DNA of 28,158 nucleotides from positions 1 through 28,158 of the IMG/VR virus record IMGVR_UViG_3300047444_000183; one strand, 5' to 3'. The notes under the pieces were generated by a model. It had not been told where the DNA came from. It searched no databases and saw only the letters and a list, made by a program, of their open reading frames with translations. A program made the position numbers and the translations under genes. Below are positions 4,104 through 6,544 of this stretch, piece by piece (within the stretch, counting starts at the first letter, position 1; each line of letters opens with the position of its first letter). The stretch is from a virus.

Positions 4104-4271
4104 ATGCCTTATCTCTTCATTCAATTCGTCGCCCTGGGCCTGTGGTTCACCCTGCCTGCCCTCGCGGCTATCCCCCTGTGGGTCATCCTGATCCCGCTCT
4201 TCGTGGTCCTCCTACGCATCGTGGTAGGCATTGCCTTCGTGGTTGTCTTCGCCTGGGCCTCAGCCAACTGA
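4104..4271 (+). CDS. 55-aa hydrophobic membrane protein
   Basis: This short frame starts at an ATG 6 bases after AGAAGGA (4091-4097) and ends in a TGA that shares a base with the RNR start (TGATG). Nearly the whole product is hydrophobic: two likely transmembrane helices at about residues 4-24 and 25-50, the second rich in Val, Ile, Leu and Phe (PLFVVLLRIVVGIAFVVVF), with one Arg in the middle. It could be a small inner-membrane protein with a regulatory or superinfection role, or a holin-like toxin, but nothing defines its function. The ribosome-binding site and coupling argue that it is real. Confidence 0.75.
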   Translation: MPYLFIQFVALGLWFTLPALAAIPLWVILIPLFVVLLRIVVGIAFVVVFAWASAN

Positions 4272-6253
4272 TGGCTCCCTCAGTACGCGCTGAGGTCATC
4301 ACCCGGCGAACCTATAACCGCCCTTACGAGGACGGTTCGTTTGAGACCTGGGAGCAGACCATTGACCGGGTGATCGGTCACCAGAAGTGGCTCTGGGGAC
4401 GCGCCAGGGGCGGTAAGCCTCTCAAACCAAGTCAAGCGGCTGAGCTTGCTTCCCTTCGGACCCTGATGGTAGACAGAAAAGTTCTGCCCTCAGGTAGGGC
4501 GTTATGGATGGGAGGTACAGAAGTTGGTAGACGCCGTGAATCGTCTCTCTTCAATTGCAGCTTTGGTCGAGTCGAAACCGTTCACGATCTGGTGGATGCT
4601 CTATGGTTACTCTTGCAAGGTTGCGGTGTCGGGTTTGAACCCACTGTCGGAACTCTGTCAGGATTTACAAAGCCAGTTGAGCTTGAGATCATCAGGTCCA
4701 AAAAGACAGATGGAACCCACAAAGGAGTGGAAGGAAACGAAGAGACCTTCACATTCGACACTGCTGCAAATGGATACCACTGGACAATACGAGTCGGTGA
4801 TTCAGCAGAGGCTTGGGCAAAACTCGCCGGGAAGCTTCTGGCGAACAAGAAGAACTGCTCCAAGCTCACCCTCGATTTCTCGGAGATACGTCCTGCGGGC
4901 GTTAGGCTCTCTGGCTACGGCTGGATAAGCTCCGGGGACGAACTGATTGCTGAGAGCATGGCGGCTATCGTCACGCTTCTCAACAAGCAGGCCTGCCAGC
5001 TCCTGACGAGGATGCACATCCTTGACATCCTGAACCACCTTGGTCGGATACTCAGCAGCCGCAGAAGCGCCGAAATAGCTGTGGTGCCTTATGGTGATCC
5101 CGAATGGATCGAATTTGCCAAGGCCAAGAAAGATCACCACTTGCTCAACCCTCAGAGGGCGCAGAGCAACAACAGCCTGATCTTCTACCACAAGCCCTCC
5201 ACTGAAGAACTGTCAGACATCTTCCAGCTCATGGTCGACTCGGGCGGCTCTGAGCCAGGATTCATCAATGGTCAAGCAGCCCTCAAGCGCGCCCCGTGGT
5301 TCAAGGGAGTTAACCCTTGCGCTGAAATCCTTCTGGGAAACAAGAACTTCTGCAACCTTGTTGAAGTCGATCTTCGAAAGTTTAACGGAGACTGGAACGG
5401 CCTGTGTGAGGCTATCCGTCTCGTCGCAAGGGCAAATTATCGCCAAACCTGTGTCAATCTTCGAGATGGCATCCTGCAATCCTCATGGCATGAACTGAAC
5501 GAGTTCTTGAGGTTGTGCGGCGTGGGCCTGACAGGCATCGTCTGTTGGGAGCATCAGCATAGCTCCAAGCACCGGAAGACCCTCCATGACATTGCGGCGC
5601 TCAGCGCACACCACATGGCTGACGAACTGCATCTCCCGAGGCCCAAGGCGATAACCACGCTGAAGCCGAGTGGAACCCTGAGCAAGATCATGGACACCAC
5701 TGAAGGCATCCATAAGCCCCTAGGGAGGTACATCTTCAACAATGTTCGATTTAGTGTTCACGATCCTCTCGTTGATCGTTGTGTGGCTGCTGGCTATCGT
5801 GTGTTCCCTGACCCTTATTCTGACGATGCCGCACTTGTTACATTCCCGGTTGCCTGGGAAGAGGTTGAGTTCGAAACGGTCGAGAGAGACGGCCACACCC
5901 TCTATGTCAACCTGGAGAGTGCCACTGAACAGTTGGACCGCTACAAGGCATGGATGAGCGACTATGTGGATCACAATGCATCCATCACGGTCTCTTATGA
6001 CGTGTCCGAGGTTCCGGCCATCATTGAGTGGCTGAGGACCAATTGGGACACCTATGTAGGCGTCTCGTTCCTGTTCAGGAATGACCCGACGAAGACTGCG
6101 GAAGACCTGGGGTTCCCCTACCTTCCCCAGGAAGTCGTCACCGTGGTGGAATACGATGACTATGTGTCCGGTCTGAAGCCCCTTGAGCTGGTCGACAGCT
6201 CGGTGGAGTTCGAGAACGATGCGTGTTCCACAGGAGCCTGTCCGATCAAGTAA
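4271..6253 (+). CDS. nrdJ: adenosylcobalamin-dependent class II ribonucleotide reductase (monomeric RTPR type)
   Basis: This 660-aa enzyme reduces ribonucleotides to deoxyribonucleotides using a B12-derived radical. Key residues match the Lactobacillus leichmannii type. N348, C350 and E352 lie in NPCAEILL (thiyl radical cysteine, general base and partner). C361 in NFCNLVEV lies exactly 11 residues after C350 and pairs with C96 in SLFNCSF. A C-terminal CSTGACPIK provides the cysteine pair that re-reduces the active site. TTLKPSGTLS is a substrate-phosphate-binding-type loop. The ATG at 4271 overlaps the stop of the membrane-protein gene; an upstream in-frame extension is only a shadow of that gene. 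It is somewhat shorter than the 739-aa prototype, so some peripheral insertions are reduced. Its central part uses more A/T-ending codons than the neighbours. A glutaredoxin-like gene in the operon is a candidate reductant. Confidence 0.95.
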   Translation: MAPSVRAEVITRRTYNRPYEDGSFETWEQTIDRVIGHQKWLWGRARGGKPLKPSQAAELASLRTLMVDRKVLPSGRALWMGGTEVGRRRESSLFNCSFGRVETVHDLVDALWLLLQGCGVGFEPTVGTLSGFTKPVELEIIRSKKTDGTHKGVEGNEETFTFDTAANGYHWTIRVGDSAEAWAKLAGKLLANKKNCSKLTLDFSEIRPAGVRLSGYGWISSGDELIAESMAAIVTLLNKQACQLLTRMHILDILNHLGRILSSRRSAEIAVVPYGDPEWIEFAKAKKDHHLLNPQRAQSNNSLIFYHKPSTEELSDIFQLMVDSGGSEPGFINGQAALKRAPWFKGVNPCAEILLGNKNFCNLVEVDLRKFNGDWNGLCEAIRLVARANYRQTCVNLRDGILQSSWHELNEFLRLCGVGLTGIVCWEHQHSSKHRKTLHDIAALSAHHMADELHLPRPKAITTLKPSGTLSKIMDTTEGIHKPLGRYIFNNVRFSVHDPLVDRCVAAGYRVFPDPYSDDAALVTFPVAWEEVEFETVERDGHTLYVNLESATEQLDRYKAWMSDYVDHNASITVSYDVSEVPAIIEWLRTNWDTYVGVSFLFRNDPTKTAEDLGFPYLPQEVVTVVEYDDYVSGLKPLELVDSSVEFENDACSTGACPIK

Positions 6254-6255
6254 TC

Positions 6256-6470
6256 TGCGGGAATGCTCGCGGAAACCCCTCAGCCGTGGAGAGGCTAAAT
6301 GCCACGGGTAGCTATAGGCGTGACTGAGTGGCGCTCAGATACCTGACCGGGGGAGCCGGTGACAGGCGGGGAGAGACCCGCACAAAGCTTAAAAAAGACA
6401 GATGTGATAATGGCTTAGCTTGCCTTGGGAAACCCTTAGGTTTAACACCTAGCTCGTCACACGGTGACAT
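6256..6470 (+). ncRNA. candidate structured RNA of unknown class in the 3' region of the RNR operon
   Basis: No reading frame is supported here, but complementary segments are dense. TGCGGG (6256-6261) can pair with CCCGCA (6377-6382) to close a domain. CCTC (6278-6281)/GAGG (6291-6294) crosses CCGTGG (6284-6289)/CCACGG (6302-6307), making an H-type pseudoknot with 2-, 1- and 7-base loops. GGTA (6307-6310)/TACC (6340-6343) encloses CTGAG/CTCAG (6324-6328/6334-6338). CCTG plus ACCGG (6342-6350) pairs with CCGGT..CAGG (6356-6366). CGGG/CCCG (6367-6370/6377-6380) is an alternative to the closing helix. Further hairpins are TAGGT/ACCTA (6437-6441/6447-6451) and GTCAC/GTGAC (6456-6460/6464-6468). 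It is followed by a terminator, so it would be transcribed at the end of the operon. Class and function unknown; folding was done by eye. Confidence 0.5.
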
Positions 6471-6491
6471 TTCCCCCCAACGTGCCAAACT

Positions 6492-6544
6492 AAAAACCGA
6501 TTGAAGTCCAGGGTTAATCCCAATGTCTTCAATCGGTTTTTTTT
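6492..6544. terminator. bidirectional intrinsic terminator between convergent operons
   Basis: A perfect 15-bp stem, 6492-6506 with 6527-6541, carries an inner GGG/CCC helix at 6511-6513/6519-6521. It ends in eight T on the plus strand (6537-6544), and its A-rich left arm gives a T-run on the minus strand. It lies between the RNR stop at 6253 and the stop at 6573 of the opposing late operon, so it should end transcription from both sides. Confidence 0.93.

Follow-up and report, generated by a model that had tools for sequence, protein, structure and literature searches.

The stretch of viral DNA studied here (28,158 nt; hereafter the window) raises the question of what lies between an RNR gene and the terminator that follows it. 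The gene, of the B12-dependent (class II type), occupies 4271..6253 on the + strand, was assigned from its ORF and 37 related loci, and is read in the same direction as the RNA described below. The RNR operon is closed by an intrinsic terminator at 6492..6543 (+), a perfect 15-bp inverted repeat (arms 6492-6506 and 6527-6541) with a T run, beyond which lie convergent genes. The first-pass annotation had described about 240 untranslated bases in between; the gap is real, at about 237 bases, and holds no convincing gene. Two overlapping ORFs, 6328-6504 (+) and 6312-6488 (-), were judged spurious, the downstream sequences of the RNA family's members being unrelated. No tRNA was found in the 237-base gap, and a search for a promoter of the sigma-70 type also found none.

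An RNA family found from a short match

The window encodes, at 6278-6384 on the + strand, a compact structured RNA of about 110 nt (about 107 nt conserved), narrower than the 6254-6490 first proposed. Folding energy alone could not decide whether the gap is structured, since the full 237 nt outperforms its shuffles by a small margin (z -1.48; 14 of 200 shuffles). A 63-nt three-hairpin domain within it performs better (z -2.68; 2 of 500 shuffles).

The clue to the family came from BLAST, in which 29 nt (6359-6387) were 96.6% identical to a stretch directly 5' of tRNA-Cys in Rhizobium phage B1VFA, the only phage record retrieved; two rhizobial plasmids carry 25-26 identical nt. An exact-sequence search with a version too long at its 3' end gave no match and led to a shorter pattern. 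This strict motif, GACANNNGGGGAGAGACCCNNAC, derived from the BLAST clue, occurs in 75 viral contigs versus four sites across 257 Gb of bacterial genome sequence; two of the four appear to be fortuitous matches inside coding sequence. The reversed pattern, used as a control, gave no match. A second pattern, anchored on P1 and leaving the P3 stem free, added 32 further contigs. Most members of the family come from uncultivated phages. Upstream of the element, B1VFA and the Sinorhizobium plasmid pLM21S1 share another motif, GGAGCCCTGGCCG..GTGACAAC..CGGATATCACTGG, at about 200-250 in L040 and 1100-1160 in L042; this is possibly another small RNA.

Against all 4227 families of Rfam 15, including tRNA, tmRNA, GOLLD, ROOL and the known ribozymes, 6278-6384 stays below the gathering thresholds, its best scores (14-18 bits) being unrelated chance matches, and the homologues likewise find no family. 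The label "unassigned" given at first reading therefore holds. Group I intron, tRNA remnant, RNase P RNA, twister and pistol were also considered from the sequence, and model support for them is absent. As far as the libraries searched show, we are nearly certain that the window RNA belongs to an undescribed phage RNA family with the fold set out below.

Fold and covariation

The RNA begins with an H-type pseudoknot (6278-6307), continues through the linker GTAGCTATAGGCG and ends in three hairpins, arranged P1-P2-GACAG-P3 and followed by ACA (6322-6384). In the window, P1 is CTGAG-TGGCG-CTCAG at 6324..6338 (+), with a pentaloop of the U-N-G-Y-K type, and P2 is ACCGG-GGGAG-CCGGT at 6346..6360 (+). 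The joint GACAG (6361..6365, +) leads into P3, GCGGG-GAGAGA-CCCGC at 6366..6381 (+), and ACA (6382..6384, +) lies directly 3' of it. Across the family, P1 has 5-8 bp and a pentaloop U[C/A/G]GC[G/U] before a short linker; P2 has 4-5 bp, closed by A-U and C-G, before GACAR; and P3 has 5 bp and the loop GAGAGA before ACA or a variant.

We find P1-P2-P3 to be a new RNA family, and its three helices covary very strongly. The seed alignment A3, comprising 14 sequences and excluding the window, is the basis of model R2. In it 98.7% of cells are paired, 11 of 17 pairs show two-sided changes, GACA is invariant, and the covariation score is 0.59 compared to 0.16 for shuffled alignments, with no slid structure comparable. 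In alignment A6, where 68 distinct members were fitted to the model, 96.6% of cells are paired and two-sided changes are seen at 15 of 17 pairs, including all five of P3; none of 500 shuffles equaled this, and slid versions were 26-48% paired. Compensatory changes are present in P1, P2 and P3 alike. R2 matches the window, absent from its seed, at 6322-6384 with 61.5 bits (E 6.8e-12). The GAGAGA loop is found in 57 of 57 parsed members, a conservation that is overstated because the patterns used for searching already specified parts of P3, and ACA, CCA, GCA or GCCA follows P3 in nearly all of the 57. Within the helices, G-T cells far outnumber A-C cells (69 vs 14), which indicates that the folded molecule is the + strand as RNA, neither DNA nor the opposite strand. 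The first-pass suggestion of a structured RNA that could be a stable phage sRNA is thus supported by compensatory substitutions in homologues, the very observation on which it had been staked.

The 5' domain defines a subfamily. Helix S1 pairs CCTC (6278..6281, +) with GAGG (6291..6294, +), and helix S2 pairs CCGTGG (6284..6289, +) with CCACGG (6302..6307, +). A pattern for this pseudoknot, CCGTGGAGA-N(1-9)-AATGCCACGG, matches seven contigs, of which L207 and L210 look like chance, in coding sequence; a search with the window's own exact pseudoknot gave no match. The complete domain occurs in L076, L206/L209, L208 and L211, where it is followed by GT(AG/CA)CTATAGGCG and P1. The window shares with L076, L206, L208 and L211 the order S1/S2 and then GTAGCTATAGGCG, which lies at 6308..6320 (+) and is invariant at 11 of 13 positions across the five sequences. 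S1 shows two-sided changes at two of its four pairs (CCTC/GAGG, TGTC/GACA and ATC/GAT among five distinct sequences), and S2 is invariant and so gives no covariation information. The pseudoknot, noticed by eye at first reading and now seen again in four further phage contigs, where its first helix shows compensatory changes, is supported by the comparison of these five sequences. Sequence 5' of 6278 is unconserved among relatives.

Other elements of the original reading fare differently. A long-range closing helix, TGCGGG (6256-6261) with CCCGCA (6377-6382), has to be rejected because 6377-6381 is the 3' arm of P3 throughout the family and the 5' strand lies outside the conserved part. At least five local hairpins had been proposed as well; P1, P2 and P3 (6324-6381) are real, and 6385-6490 has no detected homologue. 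Two small hairpins, TAGGTTTAACACCTA and GTCACACGGTGAC, lie within 6426-6470, between RNA and terminator, again with no homologue found.

Variants of the fold, read by eye and partly tested, were also seen. In L206 and L211 the 3' domain carries a GCGGG(G) strand within the P2 hairpin loop; pairing of this strand with the final CCCGC, 5' of ACA, would create a second pseudoknot. In a third variant (L099, L110, L091, L115) the loop of the first hairpin pairs with the strand just 5' of GACA.

Distribution and genomic neighbors

The family is spread over more than a hundred very different bacterial viruses, once per genome. When R2 was run across whole records, 83 of 85 (4.6-330 kb) had one copy and the other two had a pair of neighboring copies; 298 genomes from the bacterial order of one carrier yielded only the copy already known. 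The two-copy phages are L109 (10384-10539), whose first copy has a variant P3 (GTGG-AGAGAGAG-CCAC), and L155 (2463-2864).

The neighbors vary, from DNA polymerase (L049, L055, L056) to a membrane protein (L045), a head gene and others. In L058 the neighbor is an RNR gene, itself preceded by a MazG-like gene. Several members lie 20-25 nt 5' of the next gene's start codon. In the window and in L211 the next feature is a terminator and no gene, at 108 nt and 10 nt from the RNA, respectively.

tRNA genes are the recurrent companions. Fifteen of the 87 distinct elements are followed by a tRNA no more than 60 nt away, at no more than 10 nt in 14 of these, and 12 are preceded by one; in all 27 cases element and tRNA share a strand. 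For random positions in these loci the corresponding figures are 2.7% downstream and 6.1% on either side. Copies in tRNA arrays usually stand 1-10 nt before a tRNA, and some lie within arrays of 20-38 tRNAs (e.g. mid-array in L155 and L167). About three quarters of members have no adjacent detected tRNA.

Some related loci deserve mention in their own right. In Otagovirus-like Pseudomonas phages (vB_PF_Y1-MI, Pyxpy01, Kassivere), GACCGAGGGAGAGACCCACCA or a close variant of it stands immediately 5' of tRNA-Thr, preceded by AAGC..GCTT (L185 334-418; L204/L205 near 200-247). They probably represent a diverged lineage of this family, though R2 gives them only 8 bits. In Pseudomonas prophages the element precedes a gene that resembles tRNA-Gly, has a short D arm and escaped ARAGORN in L093 (2969-3040); about 480 phage records (FelixO1-, rV5- and T5-like) contain similar DNA, in many cases without annotation.

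For the locus that opened the question, the neighbor proves to be incidental. None of the 37 RNR relatives fetched carries the RNA, which was therefore gained or lost independently of RNR. The closest of them, L003, lacks the RNA, and its terminator arm AAAAAGACAGATG persists at 6391-6404 of the window. There AAAAAAGACAGATG (6391..6404, +), the same arm as in the intact terminator of L003, is probably a relic left arm of an ancestral terminator. The arrangement hints that the segment containing the RNA was inserted upstream of this arm. The roles first tied to RNR, a sensor or a protector of the mRNA 3' end, lose their footing here, as homologues sit beside many other genes or within tRNA arrays. 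An RNR-linked regulatory RNA is ruled out by its absence from the 37 relatives, and we consider it unlikely that the element senses B12 or nucleotides on behalf of RNR or serves as a 3'-end protector specific to it.

Possible function and comparison with known RNAs

The properties demonstrated here, namely a family with its secondary structure, strand, single copy and tRNA-array association, are best explained, at a probability of roughly 60%, by a phage small-RNA gene that is cotranscribed with its neighbors, freed by processing and active in trans. It is from the single copy, the lack of a fixed neighbor, the placement among tRNA genes and the invariant unpaired bases together that we infer trans action; a discrete stable transcript and a processing route are likewise presumed. 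We propose a model in which the RNA, transcribed from the + strand, forms the final part of the RNR operon and folds into the 5' pseudoknot and three hairpins (P1-P2-GACAG-P3-ACA). RNA processing would then release or stabilize it. In phages with tRNA arrays, the RNA would be excised by RNase P together with tRNA 3'-end maturation, and the window copy would need RNase E or another nuclease. Once released, its unpaired invariant pieces (the P1 pentaloop, the GACA joint, the GAGAGA loop and the 3' NCA) would act in trans by binding a conserved host component, and our best guess is that such binding would serve host takeover or counter-defense.

A cis-acting leader or regulator of the next gene, such as a riboswitch, a translational control element or an antiterminator of the HK022 put type, would account for the many copies that occupy the gap from one gene's stop codon to the following start (L045, L054, L058, L049), and a cis role is possible for the members just before start codons. 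The size and hairpin make-up also resemble the ~70-nt putRNA with its two stem-loops (PMC9378689). However, the genes downstream are unrelated to each other, the copies among up to 38 tRNAs (L155, L167) are in mid-array rather than at operon starts, and the element is followed by a terminator and then convergent genes in the window and by a terminator at 10 nt in L211, so we consider this reading unlikely for the family. Somewhat harder to sustain is an element that processes or protects only its own transcript, self-cleaving ribozymes included. A compact fold that is in part pseudoknotted, whose invariant core adjoins tRNA 5' ends and here lies at an mRNA end, would suit such a task, but the Rfam models, with the known self-cleaving families among them, give no match, and a general signal would not be expected as one copy per genome amid flanking transcripts that vary between phages.

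The single copy, often close to replication genes, could also point to a single-site replication or packaging element, working as RNA or single-stranded DNA (a primer RNA or an origin hairpin). The roughly five to one excess of G-T over A-C argues that selection sees this strand as RNA, and an origin would not be expected inside tRNA arrays or at the ends of operons, which makes this explanation highly improbable. That the structure is a functionless chance fold or repeat is hardly credible: the unremarkable folding energy of the 237 nt (z -1.48) speaks for it, but it is contradicted by covariation across unrelated phages and by 75 matches against none for the control pattern.

The family has implications beyond this locus. 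An RNA that is kept once per genome in small to giant phages, in several bacterial groups and with strong covariation, must benefit phages generally, and this one is absent from the RNA libraries despite its spread. It is a short, defined object for pull-down and deletion work, and discovery of its target could expose a new RNA-based route of host manipulation or evasion.

In habitat, the nearest described kind is GOLLD and ROOL, structured phage and prophage RNAs often near tRNA islands and without an explained function (PMC12286853). Both are far larger than the window RNA, GOLLD often exceeding 800 nt, and both are among the Rfam families that gave no match. The HK022 putRNA is, like our family, a phage RNA made of hairpins, at ~70 nt, but the hairpins themselves differ. 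The put site is located behind early promoters and exerts its effect at terminators downstream of it (PMC9378689); the window copy does not stand after an early promoter and before a long early operon but at an operon 3' end. Proteo-phage-1 RNA (RF03044), also from phages, lies ~60 nt upstream of the family member in L093; it is a separate stretch and was not found near the other members tested.

PAK_P3 sRNA2 is a phage small RNA encoded between two tRNAs, detected by RNA-seq and abundant late in infection (PMC4933390). R2 finds no match in the PAK_P3 genome, and by eye sRNA2 is tRNA-like, with acceptor strands, a T arm and a long insertion, closer to T4 RNA C; the PAK_P3 sRNAs are thus unsupported as homologues. 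The same tRNA-like make-up is seen in L202 12308-12428 (PAK_P3 sRNA2), L041 1526-1652 and T4 RNA C (L217), and it could account for the 11-nt match to host tRNA T-loops published for PAK_P3 sRNA2. In L041 the tRNA-like RNA follows the family element, and the order in T4 is likewise RNA D and then RNA C.

T4 RNA D (species 2, or the band D stable RNA) offers a further parallel. What the T4 band C and D RNAs do has gone unexplained since the 1970s (PMC4933390). Like the window family, RNA D, at ~119 nt, comes from a single locus; it lies directly 3' of tRNA-Arg on the same strand, comparable to the family's place in tRNA arrays. Near its 5' end is a P1 hairpin with a UNGYK pentaloop, CCGG-G[UCGCU]A-CCGG, invariant in five other T-even versions read, whose pentaloop and flanking G.A are those of P1 in L102; P1 of L053 and L206 has the flanking G.A too, with UCGCG or UAGCG as its loop. 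The last helix of RNA D ends GGCGCACC, compared with CCCGCAC(A/C) in the window family. Unlike the family, RNA D lacks GACA and the GAGAGA hairpin, and its middle part is unrelated. Since R2 does not recognize RNA D even with filters off (6.6 bits, E 2.1), and P1-like hairpins arise by chance in 0.2-0.7% of 119-nt windows, we list RNA D as a lead and not as a member. We nevertheless entertain, tentatively, the possibility that the family is part of a wide phage class including T4 RNA D and acting in trans against a conserved host component in many tailed phages. Such a class, about which we are equally tentative, would consist of single-copy, tRNA-array-borne RNAs with a P1 UNGYK pentaloop, a variable middle and a 3' helix with NCA at its end. 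The family may then hold a key to T4's stable RNAs, and if the kinship is true, a puzzle of the 1970s becomes testable in many systems.
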